NCBI GenBank assembly: GCA_000181795.3
Contig: CM012953.1
Coordinates: forward strand, 12,070,006 to 12,134,005
Source of the DNA: Trichinella spiralis
Taxonomy: Eukaryota; Nematoda; Enoplea; Trichinellida; Trichinellidae
DNA length: 64,000 nt
Direction: 5' to 3'
Shown here: positions 1,577 to 64,000 of the stretch, in pieces
How the letters are laid out: every line of letters starts with the position of its first letter
Numbering within the stretch: the stretch's first letter is position 1
Notes under the pieces: generated by a model
Databases searched by the model: none
The model's input: the letters and a program-made list of their open reading frames with translations, nothing else
What the model was told of the DNA's origin: nothing
Translations under genes and position numbers: made by a program

Positions 1577-4500
1577 AAATTCAACTTATTCGTCATGTAT
1601 TATTATTTCAATTGTTGCTTGTTATAAAGTATTATTTTAATCAATAAAAAAATATTATTTTTTTATTTGAATAAGCTCAATCTTTCAACTTTCAAAAACA
1701 ACAACCTACAAATACGCTTTGCAATAAAATGATTTCCAATTATGATTAAAAATGAAGAAACTCTAAGGAGAATAAGAGTGAAATTTCTAATGACAACTAA
1801 TGAAACCGTGAATCTGCACAATTTTCTTTTTTGACAATCTTTGAGTATTATTTTTCAATACATCCATATCAGTTGAAGTTGAAATCAATTTTTCAAGCAA
1901 GCAAGCAAAACGAGATATAAAAAAATTGTCAGTGATCAAGCATGCGTGTCTGAGGACTGTACAAATGCAATATCATTTGATTAAAAAGGTATTCATAAAT
2001 ATGCTATTAAATATACAAAAACTGTGTTCAAATATTTTCCATATTTACAGATGTATACCAAATTCAATTAGTCACAAATTTATTCACACTGCCTGTTAAT
2101 TACTGAATGATTCAAATTCCATTATAAATGGTCAATTAATTGAATAGATGGATAATGCTTTGTTTACGAATAAAATTTATAGAATATTATTAAAAATTAT
2201 TCTTAACTACAAATACAATAGCAGAATTAATATAGAGCGGATTTTATCATACTATCATGATTAAAGTTAAGAGGTAAAAAAAGGAATAACTAAAATTAAA
2301 GGGTGTGCATTTTCTGAAATGCATGCAATCGCTGATACGTTAAATTTTGATTTTGAAATTTCTCGACTCTACAACCTGCCATGTTGAAAGCGATATTGAC
2401 TTTCAAAATATTTAAAATTCGAAAATCAATTTTCAATTTAGCCAAAGCTTTAGCTGATCATAAAATTTATTTGACATCTCCCATATGCAAATTAATACTC
2501 TGTTGCATATTTAATTTCATTAAACTCCAAGCGCATTAATGCATACATATTACATTACATGCTATTTTTAAAACTGAATTTTGAAATTATATTACATTTT
2601 ACATCACAACAAATATGTTTTAAACTCATTTTTTGTCTCATCTTATTAGATAAATAACAAAATAATGAAAATTTGAAATCACAAGATCATCTAAATATAA
2701 ATTTGCAAAAATGGCATTTACAAAATGTATTCTGAAATATACCCAGGAATTTTTTAATTAAATTTACCGCTAAAAAATTAAATTTCACTATGAAACAAAT
2801 TACTTAGGAAAAAGAATAACAAAAAGTGAAATTACAGAATAAGCGTTGCAATTATGGGAATTATTTCTGCAAATTATAAAAGTGAATTTTAATTTAAAAA
2901 ATATAAAACGTAATTTTATATCAAATATAAAGTTTAATCAATGTAGGTTTTATTTTAAAAGAGTATTTCAAAAATTTTCAAATGCAAATGCAATTGCTTT
3001 TTTCATTGTCTTACACCTGTTAATCATCTCTTATCACGTGTTTAAAATCATCAGAATGCATTTTCTAAATATTTATATGTATCAAAAAATCGTTTTAAAA
3101 TCACAGCCACGAGAAGGCAATTTTGAATTATTGCTCTTGATTGCATTAATTCATCAAAAACTGAAAATACAACCAAATGATCATGTTCAAATTAAAAATT
3201 TGTTCTACATAATTATTTTATTATTTTACAGTACAAATTTTATTTCCTTCATTAAAAATTGAGTAATAATAATAATATTATTATTATTATTTGCTGCCTG
3301 ATGAACCGTGCAAAATTACAACCTATTCAAAAGAAAGATGTTTGACAATTTGTATTTGTATGAAAATGCACTTGATCAGAAGTGCAATATTAATTGAACA
3401 TCGTGAAGTACAGCATGAAATTAGAAAGCAGTATCTTGTGGAACTAGTGAAAAATTTATAAGCATGTCACTGGTCAATTATTAAGTAATGAACAGATCCA
3501 CCAACTTATGTTATGCTCAATAAACAAAAGCAAGGATAAAACTGTGAATGGATTTTCAGTTGCAATTTTTATTTTACGAACCGACATTATGGCAAAGTTT
3601 GCGCGAAGTTGATGCATACTGAACTCATCTGTTGTTGCTAGTTTGTCCATAAAATTTTATTTAAAATTTTAATAGCCACAGCAACCGGAAAATAAATATA
3701 AATACAATTGTTTAAGCATTGCTAGTATCTATGATTTCTTCTCAGCAAGTTTACTCTCCCAAAGCTCGAAGCTTTAATGTTGGAAATTTCAAGAACAACT
3801 GTTTTCAAAGAATTGCTTGCAACTGTTGAAGAAATTGCTTCGGCAGTTAATTCCGACGAGCTGTCACATGCAAACTAGCAAATTTTCCCAACAAAATCAT
3901 TACAACCATCATTATATCGGCGTGCATAATAGTCAATCGACTTTTTCAAATTTAGGTATATTTATAACTTTTGCGCGGATGAGGTGCAAAATTTACCTTT
4001 GAATAATTATACGATACAACAATAAAAGTCAAAAAGCAAAATATCCAATTGAATAATTGGAAGCACTTGAATAACTTCAAAAATGTAGATATGCATCGAA
4101 AAATGAAAAATGAATTTGACAAGAAACACATCAAGTTGTGATATTGCATCTTGTATAATGCAGTTGTATTTTCACTTTATCCGGTATACTAAATTCAGAA
4201 AATAAGAAAATATGCAGAATAGAACTTTTATAAAAATTAAAAAAAATTTACTTTTCATGTTGGGACATTCGGATATATGAAATTTCATTTCATTGATTTA
4301 AATTCAATAAGAGTAGATAAACAAAATAATGAAATTTGATAGCGCAGTATTGCTATTTTTTATTAAGCAAAAAAAGAAATTGAATTTAAAATTTTTCGAA
4401 CAATTACGAGTAAATTTAATAAAATTTTGATTTTCATTTTACATTAAAGTTTAAAGAAAAACCCTATTTCAAATCTGAAATATTTGAACACTCTGCAATT

Positions 4501-7009: not shown

Positions 7010-8723
7010 CTAAATTAAATTTTTCACAGATGACAAAAAGCGTTCATTGAACTTGTCAACGCCAAATCGTTGTACGGAATTTCTAGCAGCTTCTTGCATT
7101 CGTCTTCGGACGTTTGGCGGCATTTGTAAAATTTTCACAATAGCATCCGAATATTCTTCGGCCGAAGATGCGGTAAAGCCGACTTTGTGGGTGTGAAAAT
7201 TTTTCACAATATCCAATTTCGGACCGCCGGAATCGTTGGCAACGACAATAATCCCAGAAGCCATCATTTCGACAATGCCTAAATTGAGCAATTTCAACTT
7301 CAATCATCGATATTTATTTTCATTTTCAACAACGTGAAACAGTTCTGTGTAGATAACGCAATAAAATTAATTAATTATTACAAAATCAAATTTACCAATT
7401 CCAAAATGTTCATTCCACATCGTGTGAATTCCAACAGTAGCTCCAGCTAGCAGTTCAACAAGTTCATCGAAACTGACGTTCACGTGCCAAACAATTTGAT
7501 CACTTGGAATTCCAATATCCCGAGCCAATTTTTGCAATGATCGCAGACGTTGCTGATCATCACTGTCTCGACAACCGCCAACAAGAGCCAGCTTGACATT
7601 TTTTTGATTCAAATTAGACGCAGCAAGCTTGTCCAAAAGTAGTCTGAAGCTTGCCAACGCCAACGGATAATCTTTCTCGGGTCGAAACTGTCCAATGGCA
7701 ATTATGCCAATAGAATCTGCATCGTTGGCACGTTCAAATGGAATCTTCTCAAATATACCAACATCACACGGTGGATAGACAAGAAACGTATACTCTGGAT
7801 TTCTCCAAAGTTCAAGAATGTGATTTCTTGTCCAAGTGGAGTTGACCATCACCACGTTTGTAGAACAGCCCGCAAATTTGTACAACAACGCGAACGCTTT
7901 GTAATAATAAAGCTTAGCCGCTGAAAAAAGAACACTATTGGAAATCCATTCGGCATGATTGTAAGCTGCCTTTTTCTCTTTCACAATTTCCAACATATCC
8001 GTACTGATAGTAGGATAATGTATATAGCAAGCGGTTTTGCATCCTCCAACATAGCGGAACATTGGAAGCAGAAATGCAAATCCTGTAGTGTCTATGAAAA
8101 CCGATGGCTGAAAACGAAACAGTGCCTCAAGACCAACAATCAAGCTAAATAAATTTTGAGCTAACAAAGTGAACCGTGGATACAGAGTATCTTTGAGAAA
8201 GAAACAACTGGCCAAGCGGACAAATTTGACAGTCGATGCAGTGAAACTTAGTCCAAAACGTTTTTCAACATTTTTCAAAATATCCTCATCAGAGCATTCA
8301 TAATCATCTGAATAAATGATAAATTCGACATTTTCGAATCTAAAAAAACAAAAAAATATTAATAAAGAAGAAAATAAAACTTTCTCAAATGTACTACAAG
8401 AAAAATTCATCATAAAAAAAATAAACAATTCAATCATCAATAAATAACTGAAATTTAATAATATAGAAATGTACCCTTTTATAGAGGAGAATATTAAAAA
8501 TAAAAACAAGAAATAACTTTATAATAAATACATACTTTTCCAAAGCTTTAATTGCACACCAAAGAACCCGTTCACCGCCTCCTCCACTGTTGCAATAGGG
8601 ATGAAAAAAAGCAATGAAACATTTCCCATTATTACAAGAACGACGGGACAAAAGACGAAATATCACAGCCAAAAGTAGTAAAAGTAACACAATGCTGATA
8701 GTCGTCCAACAAAGCATTAACAT
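7010..8723 (-). CDS. ALG11: ALG11, GDP-Man:Man3GlcNAc2-PP-dolichol alpha-1,2-mannosyltransferase
   Basis: Three exons (8723-8536, 8339-7396, 7278-7010) join in phase to a 466-residue protein, close to the family's usual length (about 490 in mammals). ALG11 adds the fourth and fifth mannoses to the dolichol-linked oligosaccharide on the cytosolic face of the ER, in the N-glycosylation pathway. Visible hallmarks are an N-terminal membrane anchor (about residues 5-25), the glycine-rich GGGGERVLW segment after HPYCNS, the GT-B nucleotide-sugar site NEHFGIG..VE with the EX7E pair split across the last intron, and [10 protein letters not shown] chose the ATG at 8723 because GTG at 8726 is only a near-cognate codon and an acceptor lies 24 nt upstream. 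The gene is head-to-head with BOLA3. Confidence 0.95.
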
Positions 8724-18627: not shown

Positions 18628-19180
18628 CCGTTTATTGATTATTTTTTATTTTATTCTTCTTCTTGTTTTTGTTATTGTTATTATATTTTTATTTCTTGTC
18701 AGTTTGATATAGTTATTAGAAGTTTTCAGGTGAAATTTTTTTTACAATATCACTGATGTTATTTGTGAATGCAATGTTATATTTTTCTTTAAAACATGCA
18801 AATAGGAATTTGCAATGTTTTAGTTTATTATTTGAAGTGTTTGTCTTGTTATTGAAATTGTTAAGTTTGAATAAAAGGAATGAAAATAGAACAAATGATA
18901 TGTAATTTTTGGTTCCGTTTTTTTTACATTTTTTAAAATTAATTCATTAAACATTTAGTTTGTAAGATTCCGTTTCGCTAAAATTTTAAACATATGACAA
19001 TATTTTAAAATGTGCAAAGTGTATGTATGCTTTGAAATTTAATCTTCCTATAAATATTATTTCCGATTGTTTAAAGTAGAACTTTTGTTTTAAATTAATT
19101 TTTACTGATAGTTCCATTCAATTTAATTTTCAATTTGCCACGCCCCATTTTTCACTTTTGCAGCAGTTAATTGAAAAAGC
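18628..19180. other. intergenic, KAT7-like 3'UTR to kinase 5' leader
   Basis: It holds a T-rich 3'UTR with an AATAAA at 18870 and, at its end, a TTTTGCAG acceptor (ending 19163) 17 nt before the kinase ATG. I see no other gene. Confidence 0.6.
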
Positions 19181-20086
19181 ATGTCGTCTGATAGCAGTGA
19201 TTGCGAAATTGACGATGTTCTTGACGGTTGGATAGTAGAAAAATTTTTGGGAAGAGGTGCGTTTGGATGTGTTTATCAAGTTGTACACGAAAAAACTAAG
19301 CAGAAGGAAGCGATGAAGATTGAAAAACGACTATTTGGCTATGATAAGCTGTTTTTTGAAATTGAAGTGATGAAAAAACTAGAAACATTTGGCGCGAAAC
19401 GTTGTTGCAAATGCATTGCATATGGGGAAAATAGACACTTTAGATATGTTGTGATGACACTGATGGGAATGTCAGTTTCTGAAGTATTGAAGTCTTGTGA
19501 AAATTCACTTAGCATATATGAAGCGATGTATATCGGTATGGAATCGTTGTATGCTATAGAAGAATTGCATAACGTTGGTTTCTTGCATCAAGATATTAAA
19601 CCACAAAATTTTGTCTTTGGTCTGCATTCAAATTCACACATTCTGCATATTATTGATTTTGGAAGTGCAGCGTCATTTCTACTTGAAGATGGAAGTCATC
19701 GACCTAAAGATGATAAAAAAGGCTTCACTGGTAGTTACCTTTACGCTTCAGCATATGCAATGAGTCATTCAACTCTTTCTCGTAATGATGACATCTGGTC
19801 ATGGTTTTTTATGCTAATAAAGCTTACTGTTGGCAAGCTACCCTGGACGAAACTTCGAGGAAATTCCTATACACACACATTGCTTTTGAATCAGCAAACA
19901 AAGTATCATTATATGGCCAATCCCGTTGAATTTCTTACTGATTGTCCTATATGTTATTTCAAAATAATGGAAACTGTTGCAGGAGAAAGTTTTTTTGCTG
20001 TTCCTGAATATAATGCAATTCAGTCCATTTTAAAAGAAGCAATGAATGCTTGGACTGGAGAAAAGTTATTAAGATGGTTAACCTAA
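19181..20086 (+). CDS. intronless casein kinase 1/TTBK-like protein kinase
   Basis: A single exon codes for 301 residues of a complete CK1-superfamily kinase domain with hardly any tail. Visible elements: glycine loop GRGAFGCVY (about residues 24-32), VAIK-equivalent AMKIEK, catalytic loop HQDIKPQNF (Asp, Lys and Asn present, but HRD has become HQD), DFGSA, the CK1-type GSYLYAS in place of APE, and DDIWSWFFMLIKL. Nematodes carry very large families of such short, often single-exon and germline-expressed CK1/TTBK-like kinases; their substrates are mostly unknown. The ATG lies 17 nt behind a TTTTGCAG acceptor. Activity is plausible because all metal- and ATP-binding residues are kept. A CK1 relative is certain; the subfamily is not. 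Confidence 0.93.
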   Translation: MSSDSSDCEIDDVLDGWIVEKFLGRGAFGCVYQVVHEKTKQKEAMKIEKRLFGYDKLFFEIEVMKKLETFGAKRCCKCIAYGENRHFRYVVMTLMGMSVSEVLKSCENSLSIYEAMYIGMESLYAIEELHNVGFLHQDIKPQNFVFGLHSNSHILHIIDFGSAASFLLEDGSHRPKDDKKGFTGSYLYASAYAMSHSTLSRNDDIWSWFFMLIKLTVGKLPWTKLRGNSYTHTLLLNQQTKYHYMANPVEFLTDCPICYFKIMETVAGESFFAVPEYNAIQSILKEAMNAWTGEKLLRWLT

Positions 20087-23984: not shown

Positions 23985-24992
23985 TTAATTTTCTGGGTCA
24001 TTTTCTTCTACTACATCGTTCTGTTCTTCGATCTGACTTTGATATGGATTTATTATTTGTCTTTGCGGCTGCTGAACAGTGTGCTTGTAATCTTCGCCAC
24101 CTTCTTCCCAGTCATATGGTGCTTCCATACTATAGCCTTTCATTTCCATAACTTTATCATACTGTTGAATAAACCAATCATAATCAGGCACGTCTTCATA
24201 TTTCAACTTGCAAAGTTCATTATGAACAGCATATATTTCTTTTGGAAGATTTCCTATTAGCGTACGTTGCTTAACAGCCAACTTGAGCTCTGCCAGTTGC
24301 TTGAAGTTACCACTTCGTGACCAAGGAAGGTTACCGTAATAAAATTCAATTAACATATAAAAAGTACTGTAAAGATCATCATGGCGCCCTTGCTCTTTAT
24401 TCAGATGAACATTGGGTGATGCGTATTTAGGGGTACCACGGAACCCACAACGTTTACGCTTTTTCCTAAGTGTTCCAGTCTTTGGGTTGATTATTTCTCG
24501 CGCCATGCCATAATCCAACAGGTAAACAGTCCGACTGTTCTCTGGATCTCTTCCTAATGCAAAATTTCCAGGCTTTACATCTCTGTGAATAAAGCCAATA
24601 GAATGCAAATCTCTGAGGGCTTCTGTGCACTGACGAACTATGCGCAAGGTGGTGCTCAAAGTGATTCTTCCTTCTGGACAAGCTTTTCTTAGGTCTGATA
24701 AATTTTCACCAGCTAGTTGCATTATCAAATAGCGATTCTCCTCTTGAATACCGGCAGCTTGGAAAGCCAATGAATGTGGCATTCCTTGCATTCTTTGTAG
24801 AACATATGTTTCTAATTTCATGAATGGAGTTTGTAAACCTGCAGGCTCGACCTTCATAGCTAGCTTCTTTCCTTTTCTTTTGTCTTCTACCATGTAAACA
24901 GCTCCAAACGCCCCAGCTCCAAGAGTTTGCACCACTTCAAAAATGCCACGGATGACATATCCTTTTGGAAGAGTGTGCTCTTTTCCGGCCAT
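23985..24992 (-). CDS. intronless TTBK-like protein kinase
   Basis: A single exon codes for 335 residues from the ATG at 24992 (the GTG at 25004 is not needed). It is a complete CK1/TTBK-type kinase: glycine loop GAGAFGAVY, AMKVEP, PFMKLE, catalytic loop HRDVKPGNFA, DYGMARE (DFG changed to DYG), the basic KKRKRCGFRGTPKYAS activation segment and GRHDDLYSTFYMLIEF. A short acidic/Gln-rich tail follows (about residues 290-335). The basic KKRKR cluster near the activation loop is shared by nematode and vertebrate TTBKs; vertebrate TTBKs phosphorylate tau and tubulin. A TATTAG acceptor lies 17 nt upstream of the ATG. It is convergent with the CK1-like kinase at 19181-20086 but clearly different in sequence, so not a recent duplicate. 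Confidence 0.94.
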   Translation of the reverse strand: MAGKEHTLPKGYVIRGIFEVVQTLGAGAFGAVYMVEDKRKGKKLAMKVEPAGLQTPFMKLETYVLQRMQGMPHSLAFQAAGIQEENRYLIMQLAGENLSDLRKACPEGRITLSTTLRIVRQCTEALRDLHSIGFIHRDVKPGNFALGRDPENSRTVYLLDYGMAREIINPKTGTLRKKRKRCGFRGTPKYASPNVHLNKEQGRHDDLYSTFYMLIEFYYGNLPWSRSGNFKQLAELKLAVKQRTLIGNLPKEIYAVHNELCKLKYEDVPDYDWFIQQYDKVMEMKGYSMEAPYDWEEGGEDYKHTVQQPQRQIINPYQSQIEEQNDVVEENDPEN

Positions 24993-26140
24993 CTCTGAAT
25001 ACACTCGTCCTAATATTAATCACCTCAATTTATGTGAGTTTCACTGAGGGTTGTATTAACACTTTAAAAAGCTTTAAAACTTACTGTTTAAATTTAAACA
25101 ATAGACTGCTTAATGTTTGCTTTAAAGTACATTGTCTCATAATAAATAAATAACAAATCACTTTTTAACATTACTTATTTATATATTTATTGAACATATT
25201 ATTATTTACGTAAAGCTTAATGAATATGCATGTTAAATATGTTGTATTCAACGTTGAATCTTCAAATCTGAAAGAATATTGTATTAACAGTGTAGACTGA
25301 GATAAGATGAAAGAATAGAATATATATAATAACGTGAAAAACATGCGTTTCAACTTTGGGATTGACAATATCCCATAGTCGAAAACCGTGTACAGTGCCA
25401 AAAAGCCATCAGAAAGTCAATGTGATCCTATTAACAAAGTCAAGTTTGAACAATAAGTATAATTAAGAACATTTAGCATCTTTAACAAAACAGCCAAAAA
25501 TAAATACATGAGCAGCATTATAAAACAATTATTTTCTGCAATAGCGTAATCTGACAGATGAGGCAATGCAAAAAAGATAGAATGTTTTTTATTACAGAAA
25601 TAAACAACTTTTCTTATACAACAGCTACAAATACATAAATACACACACAGACACACAAACACAGAACCCACACACGCACGAACACACACACATAATAGGT
25701 ATGTGTATGTGAGTGTGTGTAATGCATGTGTATGTATATAGATATGTATATGTATTTATGCGATGAACAACTCTCTCTGTGTAGAGGTAAAAGAGCCAGT
25801 AACGTCACCAACTGAACAAGCGCAACGACAAAAAATTGAAAGGAAAAAAGGGAAACAACATAAACGATAAAGTTCTACTGAGCGCACACAAACACGAATG
25901 TATAAATAATAAAATAAGTGAAACGACGTAAAATGAATTGTATTATAATACAAAACCGCTTATGGGCACGCAGAAAGCATGTTCTGCGAAAACAAAGAGA
26001 AAAAACGATAAGAAAATGAATAAAAAAGAGAATACATATATATAGCACGAAACAGACACTGATTGCACTACAGGGTAAAACAAAACAAAGAAAAACTCGG
26101 CAAACAAGCAATAAAAAAACAACATCGTATGATTTCAGAT
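24993..26140. other. intergenic with dinucleotide repeats
   Basis: It lies between the TTBK-like start and the LDB1 stop. It holds the kinase leader acceptor near 25010, a short AT-rich spacer, and the AC/GT repeat at 25627-25760. Minus-strand frames across the repeat are artefacts of the repeat. No gene seen. Confidence 0.6.
25627..25760. repeat. imperfect (AC)n then (GT)n inverted microsatellite
   Basis: A roughly 70-nt imperfect AC tract (25627-25696) is followed after ATAATAG by a roughly 60-nt GT/AT tract. The two halves are complementary in register, so the strand could fold back. It is downstream of LDB1. Confidence 0.75.
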
Positions 26141-29100
26141 CTATCCAAAGGAACTGGACGTTGGGGTGCTAATTTGTGAGCTGCCGTTTCCGTTGCATAC
26201 GGGTCGAGAACTGATCGGGGAGCTTAACGTCTGCTGACCATGCCCCGTGCCAGCAGCACCACCGCTCGCGTTGCCACTGCCATTCGTGAGATTTGAGCCA
26301 CAGCTTAAAGCATCCGCGTCCGAGCCGGCCGATGCGTTGTTTTGCAATAGCACGTTCGGCGTCGACACTGCAGAAGGTGCTGTCCAACTTAATGGCGACT
26401 CGAAGCGTCCTAACAAACAACGCATATATATTATATATATTCCATCCGGGGTAGGTTCACGTTGAACAACAACAACAATATTCTCACCTTGATGTTCCTG
26501 AGAGTTCGAAACAGAACCCATGGATAACGAGTTCGGCGTCATACTCGACTGTGCCACGGCATTTCCACTACTGGATGGATCGTATTGGGTGTTTTCCAAT
26601 CTCGATATCAAACGTTCATCTTCATCCCCAAATTCACCTCCCATCATCGACGGCTCGCTGACTACCATCACATCCTGCATTCACAAAAAATGCGAACATA
26701 ACTGTGTCGAATAAACGAAAAAAGAAAAGAAATTTACAACGTGGGTTGTAAGTGGAAAGTTCACTGACGATGGTGCAGGCGAAGCAGCGCTTTTCTTTTT
26801 CCCACCTCCAGCAGACCCTGAATTCGCACCGCTACTTGAACCCTTCCGCTTTCGACGTTTAGACGCCGGTCTTGGAGTTTCTTAAATAGAGAACAAAAAA
26901 CGATGGATAAATGTGTTCGAATTTCAAGTTGGGCTGCTACTAACTCAATTCACCTTCCGGAGGCATCATTGGTGGATTGGCAGGAGCGGCAGTTCCTAAG
27001 ATAAAGAAAAATAAGCAATTTCAAAACCATACTAATAAATTTTTAAGTGCCCAAATTTTCAGAAGCGCAAAGCATGTATAATAATAATAATAATAATAAG
27101 TAATATCTGCAAACGATCATACTCTGTTGTTGAACGGCAGTATGGGTTTGCCACTTGTGAAACATAAAGCTCTTTAAGCAGTCTCTAGGTGTAATATTGC
27201 ACGACTTTTGCAAAGCCATTAATTCTTGCATGGGCTCCAAAATTACGCACAGCTAAATTACAATGCATGCAATAACGTCAACCAGGCATCCTCTTATGTT
27301 CTCAGTTCAGAGCAAAGCAAACTCGCTTACCCGCAAATAATTCAAAGTTACATTAGTCAAACCTTGACGGGTTAAATTTTTAGAAAGTTGTTCCAAAACA
27401 CCAGGATCTGGCTGCAAAACAAAGCAAAATCAAAACAGCACATAAGCGTACAAAATAATCATAAAAAACATGACATACAGCCACTGAAAATAAGCATCTA
27501 GGTATGTATTCATTGTGATTTCGAATCACAAAATGCCATGTTCTTATACGAGGCATCAATTCCTCGACCATATGTCCAGGTACAGGTGAAAACGTAAATT
27601 CAAGCAATAAGCGGCCATCCGTTTGCACCTATCAAAACAGATCAATCACATTGTGTATTTGCAACAATACCTTCGAAATCATTTTGTGTACCATACTGCT
27701 AGCACAATATTACATTACCAAACAAATTAAATAACACCAACAAATATTATGAAAAGACTGATCCTTCACGGTTTATCATAAAAAACATATATTAACATCT
27801 CGTTCAATTTATTAATTCAATTTAATAATATAATATGCCATTTCCACTATCCTAAACTGTCTAACTTGCAAAGTAGAACATTTTAAACCTCATACTTCTA
27901 GAAACTAAAATACAGTGACATATTATTCTTCAAATAAAAACTGCAACAATATTATTATCACTAAAATGACTAATATCACCTTTTAGCAGAATTGAACATT
28001 TTTCTATGCAAAATATCAAGTGAAAAAAAACATAAACGAACAAGCATAGTAATATAATTGATGCATAATTAATAAAGTAAACTTACATTAACCATAAACG
28101 GTTTGCAATGCTGAGTCACCATAGAAGTGTGTTCACAATCGAGAATTACTGTATTGGTCGGCTGTTGAAATGTTTCGCGGGCACAACGCGTAATAAAATA
28201 GAGCTCAATAACACCACCTTCAAAAATGCTCCGAAAGTAGCGTGGAATAAGGTATCGGCCAATCGCTAAACATATCATCATATATTATTGATATTTCTGA
28301 TCACAGCACATAAATATTACAATAAATAGTAAAAATAAACATTAAAAAAAAGAACCTACTGTATCGTTTCGGTCCATCTTCCAAACAAAATGATAAGCTG
28401 AGAGTAGCATCATCGTCAAAAAACTCATTCACAAAAGCATCCCACCATAGAGATGCGTTATCTGGATCCTGAAAATTTTCAATAAAAAAAGAAATTAAAA
28501 AAATACAAAGTACTTTTGGTAAAATATTAAACTGAAATGAACTAACAGAAAAAGAAAAAGAGACATAATGCAATCGAAATATGCGACTTTTAGAAAGTAT
28601 CACCAACGTACGACAAAAACCGAACCATGCCAATCACTTTGCCAAATTAAATAAGAATTCATTTAAAAAAAGTGACAATTTTAACAATAGCTAACCAACA
28701 ATTTTCATTCTGAGCAATACATCATTTCAGACTCTACCAATTATAACAACAACATTAATAATAATAATAATAATAAAGTTTGAATGTCGACATTAAAATG
28801 TTAAAGAAAATCATCGCAACTGGAAAAAAACATCACTTACGTCACTTCTCTGCTGCAACCGTCGGTTCATTTCGAAGATCTTGTATTCAAGATTGAATAA
28901 CGGTCCGCGATTTCTAAATGTATACAGAAATTCATTCAGAATAAGGTAAAAAATTAAAATATATCATGATTCTTTTCTTGTACAGATAGCAGCAATGTGC
29001 CGCATCCGACGAGAAAAAGCTCAGTATATAAATACATCTCAGCATAACCAAATAAATAAATATCAATATTGGAAGTTGGAAGAAAATGCAAAACTTTCAA

Positions 29101-46440: not shown

Positions 46441-49114
46441 AATTATGCTAATTTAAAAGGAAGAATTAAATTTTACGAAATATACAATTAACTTGCATGT
46501 TTCAATGTTTAAGCTTGAGTATTATTTGGAAAAAATCTTTGATTTTCAATAACTTAAATCTGAAATTTTACGTGATGCAGTTTAAAAATTACTCGCTTTT
46601 AAAGAGTTTGCTGTTTGAAATGGCAAATTTGTTATTTTTTATATTTCAAAATGTTGTGAGACTGAATTTAAAATATATTCATTCTTTCTTTAATCTTGAA
46701 AACTTTTTAATTTATGCTTTTTATAACTCAAAAGAATTGAATGAACAACAGAAGTAAAGCATTCGGATGAAAGTTTTTCAAAATAACCAATATTGAAGTT
46801 GAACAAAAGCTTATTTATGTAATTACTTTAATTGTTTGTCTGCATAAAGTGTTTACAATTTAAACAGTTGTAAACTTGAATTTGAAACATCTGGACAGGC
46901 GTTTCTCGATTTGTTGAATTGCATGTAAATTTAATTAAATTGCTTCTAATTTGTTATTTGATTATCAAATTCACTGCAATTATTTGTTTACTTTTGATCA
47001 AGTAATATTTTGAAAAAGTATCAAGCAATTCTAGATATTCTAAAGCAGGAAGGAGCACATTACACGTATCACAGATGTGAAACATTTTATTTGAAGTTGA
47101 TTTTTAGTTATAATATTTGTTTCATATTTTTGCAATTTTATTCCACTTTCTTTTATTTAATTATAGAAATTATTCACATGACAATATCTTGTAAAGTAAT
47201 GTATAAATATATTTACAAATGTAAACAATATTTTTACCTGCTTGACAAGGCAGTTTAATTCCCTTCTCACATTAGTGTAGCCAAGAATTCAATTATGTCA
47301 CATTATTAAATAAAGCACGATAACATACGCAATTGTATATTACGCAACATACGTAATACACTAAGCACATGCATGTAACGGTGACACTAGCGACTGCTAT
47401 TATTATCAAAATACTGGTGCATATTTTAATTAGCTTTCAACAGAAAGCATTTACAAATTTGAATTTGTCAGTAATTAAACATCAAATATACCAAAAGTTG
47501 AATATTAGCTTCTCTATCAAAAAATGCTTTGAAATATAAATGTCGCATTTGAATTTCAATGACAACAATAACGGTATTGTAGCATTTGGAATAAAATTTA
47601 CTGATTAAAATTTAATATTTCACTGATTTTTCTGTTTAATTTATTTTAAAAAAAAAGATTCAAAAAGGAGTTTCATTGAATAATGAATTGAATAAAGTAG
47701 AAAAAGAAATTGTTGAATAGGAGTAAAATTTTTCAACCGTAAATTTGTGACAGCTTTTATAATTAATAATTTTTATTTAAAATGCAATTTAATTTAGAAA
47801 ATCGAGTAAGTTATAAGTTGCATTTATTGTCGTTGAATATAAAATTTAAAGTGAACAATGCAAAATAGGCATGCCGAGTGAAGTACTTGATATATGCTAA
47901 ATAGGAAGGTTTTTAACAGCACTTCCTGTGGTCGATTGAAATAAATTATTGATCAGTTTCAACACTTCATAAACACAATTAAATCAGCTTATAGATTGTA
48001 TCGGAATAAGCGATTTATCAATGTGGCTGCTAATATTGGTGAATATAATTGATGGACTGCAAGTGAAAAGTCAGAAGACTGGTGAGCTTGCAAAAAAAAC
48101 ACCATTATAATTGATCAGAGTTAATTTCACAATTTACACTGGTGAAATAAGCGATTAGTCAGTGCACTGGTTTTTCTGCGCATGAACCCCGCCCAACCGG
48201 GTTGCTTGCATGGTGTTTATTTCAGTGGATAGCTGTTGACACGTTGCCCAATTGTGTCGTTACTTTTGCCCATAATTATCATTTCACACTGGAAAACAGC
48301 CAATCGAAATTGACTGCCCGTCGCCATTGCCGCAAACCGTCTCTGCGAACAGTTCACTTTTGAATCATCAATCTTTATTCAGTAAATAATTTGATTGCTT
48401 AATTTTTCATTTAAAAAATAAACATTTAAAATATATACATATAGAATGCATAGTTTTGGTAAAATATAATATAATTGCACAGTAGAATAGAGATAGACAG
48501 TTTTGTCAAACAAACAATAAGATGACGCGATTTGTGTGAATTAAAAGCGAAAATTGCCAACCAGCTTGGTAAGATTGGAAAGCTACTCAAACAGTAAAGT
48601 AAAGCATCCTCGAAGATCTCTTTTACATTTGTCAATTTGTTTAGCAAGACTGGTTGGTGAATTAGCGAATGCAATGTTGTTGCCCTTCTAATGTCACGCC
48701 CAGCTCCTCATCTCAAGTCATGCTACAATCAGACAGTTGTCAACGTTGATTTGTCCGACTAGGTTACGCTGACTTTTGTCGATCAAAACGCTGCTGATCC
48801 TGCTCTACAGTGAAAACAATTTCTGAATGCCGTTTTTCCCTTTTGCTGAACAAAGAACAATTTTCAAAAGCTTTCATTTTCCATTTTGACGCTCCACTTT
48901 TCCGCTACGTTGAAGCTTCAAATTCCATTTACTTCGTTTCATTGAAATCCATTTAGAGTGTTTTCTTCATTGATCGAGTGGGAATTTCCACTTCTTATAA
49001 GAAATTCACTTATTTTTCCAACTAGTCTTTGTCTCCTTTCATCCTCGTCCAAATCTCTGCATTATCAAATTCCCCCGCTGGATCATACCGATTATACATC
49101 GTCATTTGCAAAAC
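46441..49114. other. intergenic, 5' flank of the glutamate transporter
   Basis: No coding exon supported; the few frames are AT-rich noise. The last part (about 48170-48330 and 48680-49110) is less AT-rich and probably carries the promoter and 5'UTR of the transporter gene. An 11-bp palindrome CAACCGGGTTG is at about 48196. Confidence 0.5.
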
Positions 49115-52100
49115 ATGACCGAAACAGAAGAACAAAGCCGAATGTTGACATATGCGCAAGAACAGCAGCAGCAAAATTTGGATGCGAAATCTGAAAACCG
49201 ACTATCCATCAGTCCAACAAGAAATCGACGTTCAAAGCGATCTAGCTTTGTGAATACAGCTCGTACATTTGGTCATCGATGTCACTGGATTCGAGCTTGT
49301 CATATGGAAAAAGACAAGCTACTGCTATTGTTCACCGTTATTGCGTGTGTTCTTGGCCTTGTTCTTGGCATATGCTTGAGAGGCCGAAGTCCGGCGTTCA
49401 CACCGCGCGAATTGATGTATTTGCGATTTCCCGGCGAATTGTTTCTACGGATGCTTCAAATGCTAATTTTACCATTAATTGTCAGCAGCATTATCAGCAG
49501 TATAGCACAGCTGAACTCCAAAACTGCCGGAGAATTGGGTTTATATACTGTTCTGTATTATTTTACAACAACTTTGTTAGCCGTTGTTGAAGGAATCATC
49601 TTAGTGATGACAATTCGACCCGGAGACTGGTCCACAGACGTTAACATTGCTGATGATGCGCCTGAAGCAGCTCCGTGCTTAAGCAACGCAGTTGACACAA
49701 TTCTTGATCTCATCAGGTAAATTACTCTTTTATCATTTCGAGTTTATTAGGAAATTAGAAACAAAAAAATGTTTTGATGCGTGACAATTGACATTAGAAA
49801 TATTTCATTTTTCTGCAATAAGATTATTGTTGTTGTTTAATTTAAATTTATGATTTGAAGCTCAATTCTTCTCTGCCATACAATTAATACAATAGTTGTC
49901 AGATTGCAATTGTGGTCATTGATTTTACATTTATTTAGCAAAATAATTAATGTAATTGTGCAATTTAAAAATTGTTTTGCAAAATATGCAGTTTATGCCA
50001 AAGCTTTAGCGTAAATCAATTGAAGATGTATTTGATAAGCTTGCCTTGATTCAAGCTAATTTGAACACTCACACTATCTAAATACAACACCGAAGCTAGT
50101 GTTTGAATAAAATTTTCAAATATTCTTCAGTAATTGCTTAAAAATGAAATATTTTTATTATTCATTCGTGCAACAAATGAAAACTAAAGTCCATGCAAAA
50201 TGTATTTATTCAGGCTTGCTACTGCAGCTATTGATAATATTAAAATATCGCAACTGTGAATGGTATTTACGTAGAAAGTCTTTTCATGAGCATTGAAATG
50301 ATGATTCACTTGATTAATAAAGAGAAAAAATATAATTGTCAGGAGATAATTTTTATAAAAATTTGAAATACGCTTATTACGTCATTTTGATTATTAACAT
50401 TTTACTTCCGTTAACACTTCAAACCTGTTTCAATGAAAGGCAAGTGATTTTCTGCGTGAAACGTTGTGTACATGTTGACAGGAAAATTGTTTTAACTGGA
50501 TTTTATGTGTTTCGTCGTTGTTTTTCTTTTTTAAGCATCTTTCACTTTAAAACTCAATGCTCAACATTTGCAAACCTTGCAAAAACTTATCACCACTAGT
50601 CTGTTGACAGCATTGCTATTTCTCGCTTTCATCATCAAAAAAATAATTCACTTCAGGCAAAATATGTTCATAATTTATGCAATCGTTCTATTGCATACTG
50701 TAATCGTTTTCATGCAAAGAATTGAAAAATAAGAATAAGAAACTGTTTCTCAATTTCACAAAGCATAAGCTATTTAGAACAATTTTAAATTAGATGCTGT
50801 TTGACTTTTGATGAAACTTTTACTTCATATTTTTTATAAATACGAAATTGTCATATTTCTCTTTTGCAATTAGTCATATTATTAATTTAGAGTACTGTTA
50901 TGTTAAAAGAATCATTAACTACAAACTGATACATTTCTAATGCTCTATTATGTATCCTTGAATTCATTTTAAAGAAGCATTTTAAAGAAATTTATTAGTT
51001 TAATAAGCTGAAACAATCTGTGGTAAATTTTATTGTTGATTTTAATCTTTCATTGCTGCAGTGCAGGAGGAAGTATGCGGAAATGCTTATTTTTGCACAT
51101 CTGTGTATGCTAACGTTTGTATCGTGTTGAGCTATTTTCGTAATATTTTCATTCGTTATTCTTTCGTTCAAGCGACTGTTTCACAACTACAATTTATGAT
51201 TTTTGTTCTGGACATTGCTTTTAGTGTTTGGTAAAGTGGAAGAATAATGCTCATTCACAACATGTGCAACTGATGTGTTGATGCCAGTTATTGAACAATG
51301 AAACATTGGCGTATGTAAATATGTCAGTTGTGAAATGATGAGAATTGAAAACGGTCAGCCAGTGCTTTTATCCAAAGTATAAACTCTTTGACAGAATGCA
51401 AGCATTTATTGATTTTATTCGCATATCAAAACAATACTTCCAAATCAAAAGTAATCATCAGGGTTCTGTTCAATTATTATCACTGATACGCAATAACAAT
51501 AATGTTCAAACACATTCATATCTCGCAAAGAATTATAATTTCTTATTTAAAAACGTTTGACTTCTATTTTTGCATAACTTTTAAATAATCAAACATGTCT
51601 TCTTATACATATATATGCATATCTTCTTTTTCTATAAATTATATAATTTTGTAATATTAATAACATAATTAATTTGAATTTTTCTAATTTGAAATAAACA
51701 TCCGCTTTGTAATATATGATGCCGTAGTTAAGATTCATTCAATGACGAAATTTAAAGCTTAAAAAAAGCTAGAAATGTGCATCGGTGATTTTCAGCTGAC
51801 TTTTGTTTATGCTTTATTTGTTTACTTTGTTTGAATTTTGAGGCTTTTTAATACAATCAGTATTTTTTGCATTGGCTAGTTGAAGCTTATCAGCAGATAT
51901 GCAACGCCCAGTTCAAACGAGTACTTCAGTATTGAATTATTGTTAACACCTTAACGAATGATTAACTGCTTTAATAGCTGATCGCTGTTAAACCTTTTAA
52001 ATTACTGATTAACTTATAAAATAATATTTTGCAAAATTTGCTGATTTTGCAAATTTAACATAAATAGAATTATAAAATATGAGCTAAAATAGAAAGCAGG

Positions 52101-57679: not shown

Positions 57680-59560
57680 CGGTTTGGTGCTTCTGAACGT
57701 TGTTGTGATTTCAGTTGTACTGTCTGTTGTTTCTGCTTCCCATTTTGTTCCTCCTCTTTTCGAAGATCTCACTTCTGTACTTTCGTTTGTCTTTTATCTC
57801 TTCTGGACTAGCATAACGACCGCGATCTACGTGACTATCGAGGTACCTCACCTTCTGGCCTTTCGGGTATTATACGATACTGGTCCAGTTTTTCAATTAC
57901 TGCCGGAATGTATCTCTTTTCGTCTAAGTATTTCTTGATGTATACTGGTTCGTTTGAGTGGAAAGCTCTTGTTTTCTTATGATTCTCCGTATTTCTCTAA
58001 TGAATATTTTCCCTTTTCCATGATATTGCAGTGCTGTCGAGATGCGGGTTTTTTGTTCTTCATCTGTGATGCATTAGCAATTCTGCTGGACTCAATCCTG
58101 TTTTGCTGTTTGGGGTTATTTGTTGGCTTAGCATGAATTTTGCAAGATGTAAATTCCAGTTTCCTTTTACTATTATTTTTAGTGCTTGTACCATGAGCTC
58201 AGCCTGCCAGTTTGAAGCTGGTGATACGGAGCGGTTGTAGCATATCTGATTGAGTTGGAAACAATGAAATAATGAAATTCGTTTGACGTAAATGCTGTAT
58301 TGTGTGAGTGGCTGTCCTGGATAAAATGACCCACTTGGTCACATGTCCAACAGGTGTGGCGGTCGCTGCTTTGCCGACAGCTTTGTTTTTACTGTGGCGT
58401 TGATTTCTCCTGCTAGCAGCTCTTTCACTTTCATTGCTAGCTTGTCTATGTCGCTTGGCTGCTCCGCGTGTATCGCTGCCACTGCCCCTGTTTTTGTCTC
58501 GTCCTCATGATCTGAGGTTTCCTTCCAAGCGTCGGCTGACACAACTGCGTTAGAGGCGGTGACTTGATTTATCATGATCTTCTTGCGAACCCTCTTTTCA
58601 AAGCTATCTGGTAATATTGTAAACTTAATCATGTCCTGGTGGATTTCGGCTTTGAATTTTTGTAGCAGAATGTCATCTGCTTGATCTTTCAACTGTGGGA
58701 ACGCCTTGGGGAGTAATCGTTTCAACGTACTCTTCGACACTCTCGTTTTTCCGTTGTCGCCGGTTAATAAATTCATTCATGTATGGTCCCTCTGAGCTAT
58801 TTACATCGAATATTCTAAACAGTGTCAATTTCAACTTATCATAATCGTCAATCTCTTCCACTTCCATCGCCGATAACACGTCCCCCATGGCTTCGTCCAT
58901 GTGGTATTGCACCGTAGCAGCTCTATGGTTATCAGGAACATCTGCCGCTCGGAAGTACCTTTCCAAGCGGATGAACCAACGTTCGACATCAAAAGACTGC
59001 GTAAGCGCTTCCGGCGGCATTATCCAAAGTGGATTCTCTAAAATCCTGCCGTGCTCACCAATTTTAGCGCTGCCCGGTGCCTTGTCCATTATACACGATA
59101 CAGGTATTATGTTTAATGGCTAATCTGAATGTATACAGATATCGTAATGCCCGCTGGCGCCACTCGCAGGCTTTATTCACCACACACTCGCACATATATT
59201 ACTTCCTTTTTCTGGACCCTATAAAAACGCATTTGATGTTCAGGTACCATCGCCACAGAGGCACTGGCAATTATTTTTGCTGGGAACTGGGACTTTTGGA
59301 ACCACATATGACGGCGGAAGAACGGAATTGTATCTGCACATCTTACTAATATTTTTGTAGGCCTACGCATCGTAGGGAACGCGGCAAAGTTGATTGCTCA
59401 CGGAGCTGCGGTTCTGCTATCTTGATTGTCATTGCTGTATTCCTCTCCGTTGTTTTTGTGTATAGTAAACACTTAACCCTTCGTGATGGTCCGTAATTAT
59501 ACCGCAATAGCGCAATCCAATACCACAGACAATGTCGCCTAGAATGCTACGTTGCAGTCT
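57680..59560 (-). mobile_element. truncated Ty3/mdg4-type retrotransposon with gag remnant
   Basis: The minus strand encodes a gag-type capsid protein. One frame runs from 59089 to about 58745 and continues in another frame from about 58775 to 58339. A nucleocapsid zinc knuckle follows in a third frame at about 58357-58315, with its final cysteine changed. Below 58300 only a Lys/Gln/Arg-rich linker-like translation remains; no protease, reverse transcriptase or integrase is recognisable. About 65 nt upstream of gag the palindrome TGGCGCCA (59155-59162) could be a tRNA primer-binding site, preceded on the minus strand by an AATAAAG poly(A)-like signal, so 59163-59560 may be the remains of the 5' LTR. 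At least two frameshifts make it inactive. Limits are estimated from GC content. Confidence 0.72.
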
Positions 59561-60624
59561 GCAATTAAGCGCTTATATATGAACTTTGTTTCAAAATAAG
59601 AAAATATTTGGCAAAATCTGATGCGTTGAATAGACGTGTTTTTTTTGTGTTATTGGGTTCTGTTTACTTTGAATAGTCATATTATTTGTTTAAGCGTTTT
59701 TATTATTATTTAGTAGATCTAGTAAGGTTTGGTCCTCATCGGTGTAAACTGGCTGAACAAACCCACACGATACACAGTAAAACCCAAATAAGTTAATCTA
59801 AAAAATTACAAAGTGCATTCAATTTGAAATTTGACAAGCTTCAGTAATGTTCAGTAAGTTAGATTAGAATTTTTCACATTAATACTGATTATATATATTG
59901 CATTATTATTATTATTTAATTTGCATTATAAGATTATTTCATATCTCTGGCAGAGTGCTACCACCGAACAGCGCGATTCAATTTTGAATGCCCTTATTTT
60001 ACTCAAAAAGTCTATTCAATTTATTTGATGTGAGACTGTTTCATACTAAAATACTAACTTAATCAATGAACTCATGAATGAATTTTAATTCTGAGATTTC
60101 GCGAACTGCAAACGCATAAGAAAAAACTTGGTTAAAAAAGACAGCGAATATAGTATTAATTACATTACAATTTTAAAGGAACCGTCTGCTTTTTATAACT
60201 AATTATCTGACAAATCCGTGCTTACGCCAGCAAAAATGTTATTTCAAATTATTAAAATTAATAAGCAAAAATTATGTAAATATTTAATAAAGTATATTTG
60301 TTTATTTCTATTTAAGCTAAAATTTCAAAATTAAACTTAATTATTAGAATTACAGTATTCTTATTTGTAAATCAAGCAAAACTAAAATTTTGCGTACATT
60401 ATTTGCTTGCAGTAAATAAGTTGTTCATCTATTTGTCTGTTGTCTTTCAATCTATAATATCACTTTTATAATGTTTTTACATTGCTTATTTGTACATAAC
60501 GAAAGTTTGTATTCACTTTACAATTCACAATTGATACGCTTTGAAAATGACAGCATTTTTGTCTTTTTCTTTTGTTTTGCATTTGGTTGGTATTTTGTAA
60601 TTTATAATTTTAAGCTTATTCATC
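59561..60624. other. intergenic, upstream of SUZ12-like gene
   Basis: AT-rich with no recognised exon. It ends with a TATAATTTTAAG acceptor (60614) 10 nt before the SUZ12-like ATG. Confidence 0.55.
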
Positions 60625-62153
60625 ATGAGCCGCAAAAGGAAACATGAATCACCATGTACCTTGGGTAACGTATTTGACGATATTGTAAGTGCTTTCTTCC
60701 AGTGTAAGTTTTATGTTATTTCTTTCTGCGCTGCTGTTTATTGTTTGCTTTGTTACTAATGTCATTCTGTTTTCTTTATTCTAAAATTCTTTTTATATTT
60801 GGAAGGAAATCATGCATTATATGTTTTTGCAAATTGAAATGATAAAATAGTATGATAGTATGAGATGATAACTCTAAATTGTGGTAGAATTCAAGTAGAA
60901 TTACATTTTTATAAATTTTATTTTGATTGTGTAATTCATATAATATAATATAATATAATATAATATAATATAATATAATATAATATAGCATAGCATAGCA
61001 TAATATGCTATTACTATACTACAAAACAGATATTTCAAGTATCATAATTTATAACAAAAATATTATTTGTGGAGTATCTCATTCTATGGCTATCATTATT
61101 AATTATAATTTGATGTTTTTGGTGTAATTTATTTTGTATTAAAAGATTACCACTTATTTATATAGAAGTTAATTATTACATTTTGCACAGATGCGGCCCA
61201 AAAAGAAGTAGTGAAAAATCGCGCTATTTTGGTAAGGATGTTGCATGCATCTGTATTTTAGAAATAAATTGGTTTATTTAGCGAAGACGATACAGAAAAG
61301 TTTTGAAATCAAGGAAGCATAATAAAAGAGTAGCTAAATTGTGAGTAGATTTTATCATGTTACTGTTTGGTGAAATAATGGCTGTTTCAGAAAGTATAAT
61401 AAAGGGAAAATATGTATATTTTTTAGAAAATGTTTTGCAAGGATGCGTTTTCTTTTGCAAAATGGAAAGTTGATGATTTACGGTACAATTCCAGATGGAA
61501 AATCTTGTCCTCTTTGTAGTTTTGTAGGACAGTCAACTTATCATTTGGTTTCACATTTGAAGCAAACCCACACATCTTTCAAATATAAATATTATGTATT
61601 ATTATATGCATATTTAAAATTGTTCGTAGTTATTTTACATTAGAATTTATTTAGTGCAAACATAAAGTTATTGAAGTCACGCCTAACATACCTGACTCTG
61701 AAATTATATCGATTTCGGTAAGTTTTTCATTAATTATTCATTTTTAATTCGATTTTTTTCAGGATCAAGACGCCTAGAAAATTTTGATAGAATTGATGTT
61801 ATTGCTGATTTGACGCTTTTTATCATAAGACGAACATTATGAGAATAACAGATTATGAAATTGTATTGGAATAAAAAGAATAGTATACACGAAAATTGTT
61901 TTGTTAAATGTGACATAAGTGAATTATTCTATAATTCATTTATTTTTTGAAAATACTTTTTAAGTTTTCATGTCGATGCTCATGGTTCATCATACTTAAC
62001 TTTCTGTGTAAGAGTGATGAAAGTTGCTATTTGCAATCTTGTCTAATTATGCGTAAGTGAAAATTTAGTATAGTAATGTTAATTGTACTTGAAAATCGGT
62101 TTTTGCATACTGTATCAGTGGTTGAATATTCTGCTGCAAATGATTTTTGCTGA
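60625..62153 (+). CDS. compact SUZ12-like protein (zinc finger plus VEFS-like segment)
   Basis: Eight exons (60625-60703, 61191-61231, 61282-61340, 61427-61595, 61655-61717, 61852-61902, 62013-62052, 62074-62153) join in phase to 193 residues; SUZ12 of animals has 700 or more. SUZ12 is the scaffold of Polycomb repressive complex 2. The single C2H2 finger (CPLCSF...HLVSHLKQTH, then SFKYKYY and VIEVTPN) matches the SUZ12 finger in spacing and in the residues after it, and RMRFLLQNG before it matches the segment preceding that finger. Exons 6-8 give MKLYWNKK..IHENCFSDES and NRFLHTVSVVEY, which align with the VEFS box that binds EZH2. Exons 1-5 are well supported by splice sites and phase. Exons 6-8 rest on the VEFS resemblance, and the donor at 61903 is weak. 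If exon 5 joins 61763 instead, the protein stops at 61777 and lacks VEFS. Confidence 0.55.
60938..61005. repeat. (TAATA)n pentanucleotide repeat
   Basis: About ten units of TAATA, then three GCATA units. It is inside intron 1 of the SUZ12-like gene. Confidence 0.95.
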
Positions 62154-62693
62154 CATTTATTATACAAATATGATTGTGATGGAATTGTTAAATGCACTTA
62201 TTTATAACACTTTCAGAATAAGATGCAGTAAATTTTGCTGCGTGTGCCGCACTTTATTGTGGGTAGGTGAGTTCTTTGTAATTTTGTAAACGGAAAGCTT
62301 ACATGAATAGCTTTAGATTTACAACTAGGTCACCGTTATAAATTGGTAATGTTTGCAGGGTTGAATTTTATTCAAACAGAAAATTTTCGATCATTTTACG
62401 CTAAATTAGTCGAAAGCGTTAACGAAGTTAACGAAATTCTTAATTTACAGTTTCTAGTTGTTTGACGTCAGTTGCCGTACAGTGGACTTGTTTATCTGTA
62501 TTCAGTTGTCAATTTGAATTCGCTGTGAATTTTGCTATTAATCAGTGAGCTTCCTTCAGCGACGAGTTCAGCTTTTGATATATAATAATTTATGTAAACA
62601 ATGACTGTCTTGGTTGGTTTGTTGAATGCAGGTGTGTATTTTTGGTATTTTTTCTTTAGAACATTTTGTTTAATCGGTGAATACTGGCGTTTC
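62154..62693. other. spacer between SUZ12-like gene and PI3K regulatory subunit
   Basis: Contains a donor-like GTAGGT at about 62263 without a convincing exon and, at the end, a TTTTTTCTTTAG acceptor (62659) 34 nt before the PI3K subunit ATG. Confidence 0.5.
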
Positions 62694-64000
62694 ATGGTAG
62701 AACCGTCGTCTTCGACGTCCGAACAATGCAAGAGCATTATTCCCTCCGGTGCATTCGACGATCTGACCGAAGACCAGCTGGTCGATCTGTGCAAACAGGT
62801 AGATGAAGAGGAGAACGTGGAACGGGTTGTTACGGAGCCGGTGCCCAAGCCGACCGACGACAAGCAGCAGTCAGCGCATCCTGCATGGTACTGGGGAGAT
62901 GCCAGTCGTGATGAGGTGAATGTACAAATGCGTGACCAGCCGGATGGAACGTTTTGTGTGCGCAATTCGAGCACCGTCGGCGATTATACGTTGACAGTTC
63001 GCACTGGTGGTTGCAACAAGATGATTCGAATTTACCAACGCGACGGTAAATTTGGCTTCTCGCCTGAGACCAGCATGCAGTTCACCTCTTTGGAAGATTT
63101 TGTTAAGCATTACAGTTCCAATTCGCTCAGTGCTTACAATCGCAATTTGAATTTGGTTCTGCAAAAGCCGCTTTCCCGGCGCATGCGATTCACATCCATC
63201 AACACGGATCAGTTGGTGAAAATTAGTCGATCTCTGTGCAAACAGTACAAACTGAAATCCAATCGCTACGACCTCATATACGAAGAGTTTTTGCGACTGT
63301 CAGCAGAATCTAATGGCAAAACTCGCGCAGTGGTTGCTTTTGAAAAAAATTTGGAAATGTACGAGCAACAAATTGATGTCCAAATCAAGTGAGTTTTTTT
63401 ATCAGATTGTCGAAAAGCTTTTCTTCACACACAAATTTCGTTGGTTGTTCAGCAGTTGTGCAAATATATACGATAAGGGTTTGGTGTAATATTATTGTTC
63501 TATCTTCTGTAAATTGCAAAGTATAAATTTATTGGATCAACGATTGAATTTTTTTAACGTTTTGTCAATTGAGTGAATTTTTTTTATTTTCTTTTTCACA
63601 AAAATTGTTTGCTCACTGCTTTTGATTGTTAAATATTAGCACAACTGTTACTTCATTAACATTTGGACGTATAAGCATTTTTGTTGCTTTTTAATTTGAA
63701 AAATAATTTTTAGATTTCAAGGTTTTGCGTTACCTCATGAAAAGCATTATTTGAAGAAAAATTGGGAATTGTTGAATTCAAGAATTCAGGCGTTGAAAGA
63801 AAACAAGGAGAAGCTGTGTCATGAAATAGACGCATTTTCTGCCAAAATGAAAGAAATCGAATCCGAATTGAATGCTCTGAAACCGGAATTGTATCAGCTT
63901 TATCGTAAACGGGACTGCATAATACGGCTGCTTTTGGAGAGGGGCGTGAGTGCGGCGTTTGTGCAGAAATTGTTGTTTCAAAATTTAACCAAAGATGACA
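62694..64000 (+). CDS. class IA PI3-kinase regulatory subunit (p55/p85 type), 3' end outside window
   Basis: Exons 62694-63388 and 63714 to the window edge give the first about 327 residues. The protein binds phosphotyrosine motifs on receptors and adaptors and holds and regulates the p110 catalytic subunit. Residues 65-165 are an N-terminal SH2 domain ([21 protein letters not shown] with the phosphate-binding arginine, [16 protein letters not shown]). Residues from about 185 are the inter-SH2 coiled coil that binds p110 ([11 protein letters not shown], and [17 protein letters not shown]). No SH3 or BH domain precedes the SH2, so the layout is like vertebrate p55/p50 or C. elegans AAP-1. A second SH2 domain is expected beyond the edge. 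I chose the ATG at 62694 over 62601 because a strong acceptor at 62659 separates them. Confidence 0.94.

Follow-up and report, generated by a model that had tools for sequence, protein, structure and literature searches.

A probable short Trichinella gene with a single SUZ12-type zinc finger and without a VEFS box

Introduction

Does the locus at positions 60625-62153 of the window (the whole 64,000-nucleotide stretch of Trichinella spiralis DNA that was analysed) encode a miniature SUZ12? A preliminary description had read eight small exons here as a SUZ12 stripped to 193 residues, consisting of the zinc finger and a VEFS-like end. A lone SUZ12-type finger is of interest in a nematode lineage where, in the available parts of two papers, SUZ12 is stated to be present in T. 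spiralis (Figure 1 legend, PMC9253717) and is not recovered in this species (analysis of PMC11075575). MES-3 of Caenorhabditis elegans is a divergent SUZ12 from which parts of the canonical architecture have been lost; according to the available part of PMC9253717, its Zn domain is gone, whereas the C2 domain and a fold resembling VEFS remain. No treatment of the gene at 60625-61777 was found in the few papers retrieved on SUZ12, or on Polycomb and EZH2, in Trichinella.

Gene model and exon chain

A protein database search with the 193-residue model identified two relatives, the only ones among 28 candidates with lengths of 0.55-1.75 times that of the query. P0001, with 141 residues, is recorded for T. 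spiralis as 'Zinc finger protein' (100% identity over 71% of the model), whilst P0002 is T. nativa T02_13181, a protein of 147 residues (86% identity over 72% of the model). The gene is already deposited, without a SUZ12 label, and the names of both records, for the gene itself and for its T. nativa relative, do not mention SUZ12. P0001 was compared as a deposited protein sequence and the exon chain was rebuilt here from the window DNA. In-silico translation of the following six exons, when joined, gave P0001 exactly.

61191-61231 and the other exons are listed in order along the forward strand:
60625..60703 (+), exon 1: start codon and basic MSRKRK; P0001 residues 1-26 plus one base
61191..61231 (+), exon 2: within the chain yielding P0001; preceded by intron 1 of 487 nt
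61282..61340 (+), exon 3: within the chain yielding P0001; preceded by intron 2 of 50 nt
61427..61595 (+), exon 4, with the SUZ12-type C2H2 finger: Pfam Zn_SUZ12 29.6 bits; genome match E 5.3e-5
61655..61717 (+), exon 5 (CKHKVIEVTPN...): its inclusion takes the Zn_SUZ12 match to profile position 63
61763..61777 (+), last exon of the P0001 chain: DQDA and a TAG stop, joined via a 45-nt intron

Exons 1-5 (60625-61717) encode P0001 residues 1-137 exactly. The five introns that yield P0001 range from 45 to 487 nt, and the shortest (61718-61762, TCG/GTAAGTTT ... TTTTTTTCAG/GAT), which precedes DQDA, has strong splice sites at both ends. Exons 1-5 have a GC content of 0.305-0.415, compared with 0.169-0.28 for the introns. 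The predicted pI of the P0001-type protein is 10.0. A search of the genome found no second copy of the gene. Intron 1 contains a short ATAAT tandem run (60940-60990).

A SUZ12-type zinc finger

Pfam Zn_SUZ12 (PF23320; cut-off 28 bits) was the highest-ranking family in all four forms of the sequence, namely the exon (29.6 bits; next-best family 15), the 193-residue model (29.9; 13.6), P0001 (29.5; 14.5) and P0002 (28.9; 15.9), and PF23320 is also precomputed for both P0001 and P0002 in the database. Every one of these scores exceeded the cut-off, so the SUZ12-type finger of the preliminary description was borne out. One of the two outcomes that it named as refuting, a profile search in which neither the finger nor the C-terminal part ranks SUZ12 first, does not hold, since the finger does so. 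Across the genome (53.1 Mb, 14 contigs), there were five Zn_SUZ12 matches at E <= 1, and this locus alone scored above the cut-off.

The finger follows the pattern C-x2-C-x12-H-x4-H (C87, C90, H103 and H108; codons 61506-61571, +), with the same spacing in human SUZ12, where, by eye, a F-x-F/Y-x-Y stretch likewise comes after the finger. These four residues are the probable zinc ligands. The intact C2H2 set lies in a coding exon and is retained in P0002. In a sequence search of the PDB, SUZ12 occupied the top two rows, though with weak E values (0.056 and 0.057), and was followed by a CTCF finger (E 0.066).

For comparisons at the DNA level, a spliced protein-to-DNA aligner was written for the analysis, in which any frame and any GT-AG intron were allowed. 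Control windows were drawn from either strand, 85% of them from window positions 1-57000 and the rest from fetched loci. The human SUZ12 Zn region aligned to 61200-61900 with a score of 69, which was reached by 0/600 control windows (control maximum 63). As these controls were general DNA and not C2H2 genes, this result indicates a finger of the SUZ12 kind and does not separate SUZ12 from other C2H2 proteins. That distinction comes from the Pfam ranking alone, on which we accept the finger as SUZ12-type. No NCBIfam family was assigned to P0001 (NCBIfam models are prokaryotic), and AlphaFold prediction from two sequences gave a mean pLDDT of 39, too poor for a fold search.

The sequence beyond exon 5

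The preliminary description continued the gene past exon 5 through three further exons, and its eight exons do join in frame with GT-AG ends (582 nt, 193 codons plus stop). Exons 1-5 of that model match P0001 exactly, whilst exons 6-8 are contained in neither deposited protein. In P0001, a protein record, the chain instead ends shortly after exon 5 at the stop at 61777. At the level of this deposited protein, the other refuting outcome of the preliminary description, an end at 61777 (named there for RNA-seq), therefore holds. The features downstream are as follows.

61852..61902 (+), proposed exon 6, coding unsupported: absent from P0001 and P0002; GC 0.196, intron-like
61870..61875 (+), possible poly(A) signal AATAAA: 93 nt past the stop at 61777, within proposed exon 6
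62013..62052 (+), proposed exon 7, unsupported: weak acceptor; absent from P0001 and P0002; GC 0.325, although this is exon-like
62074..62153 (+), proposed exon 8, unsupported: requires a 21-nt intron; no VEFS-Box match; GC 0.312, although this is exon-like

The motif WN-x5-H-x3-F-S-D and the block NRFLHTVSVVEY, on which the VEFS-like end was based, can be read here, but only via a poor intron 6 and a 21-nt last intron, and both are missing from P0001 and P0002. Intron 6 has a poor donor and a poor acceptor (ttt/GTTAAATG ... CTGTGTAAG/ag), and the chain bypasses the strong acceptor TTTTTTTCAG. The 21 nt of the last intron compare with 45-487 nt for the introns yielding P0001, and we know of no animal introns this short. 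Base composition counts against exon 6 alone, since exons 7 and 8 are exon-like in GC. The AATAAA at 61870 is the only AATAAA or ATTAAA in 61701-62700, but is only a hint, because we estimate such words to be common by chance in AT-rich DNA.

The VEFS-Box profile (PF09733) gave no support to the proposed end. No Pfam match at E <= 10 was obtained in the 193-residue model, its C-terminus or three variants of the C-terminus that were hand-joined to favour a VEFS box, with the proviso that HMMER filters may drop weak matches; one hand-joined variant had a sub-threshold TLD match (E 0.015). Alignment of the human VEFS core to 61718-62200 scored 32 with introns of at least 20 nt (equalled by 264/600 control windows) and 30 with introns of at least 30 nt (346/600), and the core score was equalled in 463/1000 DNA shuffles meant to preserve dinucleotides. 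The C-terminal peptide of the preliminary model scored 26 against human VEFS, as did or exceeded 475/1000 shuffles. A longer human VEFS sequence gave a somewhat high score of 51 at 61718-62600, equalled by 47/600 controls. A traced 51-point path (61718-62617) begins in the frame of exon 6 (QIMKLYWN...), runs beyond 61902 and departs from the proposed chain. A VEFS resemblance of this size is roughly what can be expected in this DNA when frames are chosen freely. What is corrected here is a tempting gene model, in which a VEFS box was read into AT-rich sequence downstream of the P0001 stop.

The highest-scoring VEFS-like site in our scan, which covered the window and ten other pieces on both strands, was elsewhere. 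An AT-rich open frame of 139 codons at window positions 2843-3259 (+) reached 56 in plain and 71 in spliced alignment to the human VEFS core, more than any of 2000 composition shuffles or 1000 DNA shuffles, and very likely also gave rise to the control maximum of 71 in the control-window comparisons. As it was picked post hoc among several hundred windows and has no Pfam family at E <= 10, we counted it as chance.

The sequence ahead of the finger

In P0001, the finger comes after just 86 residues. The N-terminal ZnB, WDB1 and C2 part of SUZ12 was not found ahead of it, as the human N-terminal part scored 32 against 60600-61450 (+), equalled by 182/200 controls, and 71 against 57700-60700 (+), equalled by 48/100. 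Matches to MADF were all sub-threshold (E 0.0098 in the N-terminal piece, 0.086 in the 193-residue model and 0.046 in P0001).

Relative to SUZ12, neither the VEFS box (PF09733) nor the N-terminal WD-binding and C2 part was found in the Trichinella gene, and its protein has approximately 141 residues compared to 739 in the human SUZ12 chain 6c23_A. The loss is the reverse of that in MES-3, with the Zn domain being all that the Trichinella gene retains. This contrast with the finger-less MES-3 makes Trichinella PRC2 worth closer study.

Conservation in Trichinella nativa

Conservation was assessed at the protein level between two proteins. P0001 and P0002 are 84% identical across the entire alignment and share 118/130 residues once alignment columns 21-28 (spliced differently) and those beyond 138 are excluded. 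Eight of the 12 changes score above zero in BLOSUM62 and 10/12 score zero or higher, and all four probable zinc ligands are retained. This pattern fits a working gene, as judged from the two sequences.

The C-termini of the two proteins differ and neither includes exons 6-8. P0002 ends in VSFPLTIHF, the T. nativa counterpart of VSFSLIIHF plus stop in intron 5 of the window, and so the C-terminus of the short protein is provisional. Relative to P0001, P0002 fits a different splice acceptor before exon 2 and read-through of intron 5. One of the two records may be mispredicted at the exon 2 acceptor or at intron 5.

PRC2 components elsewhere in the genome

Genome profile searches located an EZH-type gene by a CXC match of 55.4 bits (C1:9043030), whose frame, in our reading, continues into a SET-like stretch. 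There was no MCSS match at this gene; the genome holds two sub-cut-off MCSS matches, neither of them there. The 5 kb preceding the EZH-type gene (L020) served as control DNA and formed part of the VEFS scan. EED gave 14 genome matches at E <= 0.01; the one inspected (C2:6065202) reads like WDR26. No VEFS box candidate was found in the genome by PF09733, by human SUZ12 VEFS or by a 606-residue human SUZ12. These were single-exon searches, run exon by exon without a known positive in an intron-rich animal genome, and so they cannot demonstrate absence. Among the best 120 of 1210 SUZ12 relatives, the named ones were vertebrate and approximately six had no name.

A possible second SUZ12-like stretch, judged from its sequence, is L004 (G000:C1:10603633), a 277-residue stretch of open frame with a finger-like segment. 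It contains KKLYPFLKHMQICSKRFQFEF, which resembles the human SUZ12 finger stretch closely, and scored 76 against the human Zn region (0/300 controls equal), exceeding the 69 of the gene studied here. The human SUZ12 N-terminal part scored 93 against 10601001-10603700, equalled by 5/100 controls. Against its being SUZ12, L004 has in our reading only two of the four ligands. The genome search gave 18 bits (E 0.117), and Pfam Zn_SUZ12 scored 16 bits versus the cut-off of 28. Its sole PDB row was a potassium channel (E 0.97), 0/275 candidate database proteins (lengths 0.55-1.75 of the query) matched at E <= 10, and VEFS searches around it gave scores of 61 and 68, equalled by 80/150 and 16/150 controls. 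L004 lies downstream of what we take to be an EDEM-like mannosidase gene. Three other loci (L002, L003 and L005) contain, in our reading, other C2H2 fingers.

Interpretation of the locus

The exon chain reproduces a deposited protein exactly, the finger scores above the Pfam cut-off and T. nativa has a relative. We consider it probable that 60625-61777 is a short Trichinella gene of six exons, encoding a basic protein of approximately 141 residues with one SUZ12-type zinc finger and without a VEFS box. This judgement concerns the anatomy only. A generic small C2H2 gene, resembling SUZ12 by convergence or distant kinship and binding DNA or RNA without a link to PRC2, would have the same anatomy, so our estimates for the two overlap. 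Such a gene is a possibility to be taken seriously, if clearly the less favoured one: the Zn_SUZ12 score is barely above the cut-off (29.6 versus 28), CTCF comes third in the PDB search, and the stretch ahead of the finger is unlike SUZ12 (182/200 controls equal), with only sub-threshold MADF likeness. However, Zn_SUZ12 outscores the second-ranked family by 13 to 16 bits, its match continues beyond the finger into exon 5, and the ligand spacing is identical to that of human SUZ12. Five introns with every frame open, together with a T. nativa protein that retains the frame and the probable ligands through mostly conservative changes, also make it unlikely that the locus is a relic or pseudogene of a SUZ12 copy, even though just one domain remains, the C-termini of P0001 and P0002 are unlike each other and, ~1.5 kb upstream, there is an open frame that matches Retrotrans_gag below threshold.

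The 193-residue protein with finger and VEFS box, proposed as a very small PRC2 scaffold or a competing paralogue, is highly improbable and was left unsupported. It needs a 21-nt intron, lacks a VEFS-Box match at E <= 10, aligns to the VEFS core at chance level, and both P0001 and P0002 stop right past exon 5. These points outweigh the in-frame joining of eight exons, the look-alike words MKLYWN and NRFLHTVS, the exon-like GC of exons 7 and 8 and the 51-point alignment of the longer VEFS at 61718-62600 (47/600 controls equal).

For the short finger protein, a role can be suggested only tentatively, with much less certainty than attaches to the anatomy. It would be a nuclear protein whose finger retains the surface with which the Zn domain of SUZ12 meets its partners, and might thereby occupy a JARID2-like accessory partner of PRC2. 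Docking of this kind is possible because this domain of SUZ12 contributes to the JARID2 surface (PMC9253717, available part). Alternatively, the protein could be a small adaptor that binds chromatin or nucleic acids by means of its basic N-terminal part, and a generic C2H2 role is as likely as the docking idea. Acting as a PRC2 scaffold in the manner of SUZ12 would be impossible, since the part that holds EZH and EED, whose binding by SUZ12 is required for H3K27 methylation, was not found. We regard as very unlikely the broader proposal that the finger-only gene is the remnant of SUZ12 in Trichinella, in which EZH would be kept with no detectable VEFS scaffold, PRC2 would be built or steered otherwise and the small protein would serve as an accessory-docking fragment.

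Genomic neighbourhood

Downstream on the same strand, window positions 62598-63999 (+) carry a gene for a PI3K p85-type regulatory subunit, with SH2 (54.5 bits) and, on the next exon, inter-SH2 (63.3 bits) matches. Upstream, there are two open frames at 58339-59119 (-). The first has no match, whereas the second (58673-59119) matches Retrotrans_gag below threshold (16.7 bits versus a cut-off of 24.1); on the strength of this match, a retroelement piece may lie ~1.5 kb from the gene. Elsewhere, the window includes an ALG11-type glycosyltransferase (7367-8518, -), two protein kinases (19175-20086, +, and 23985-25019, -, in listed order), a LIM interaction domain protein (26141-26680, -, in listed order) and a sodium:dicarboxylate symporter (49001-49720, +).
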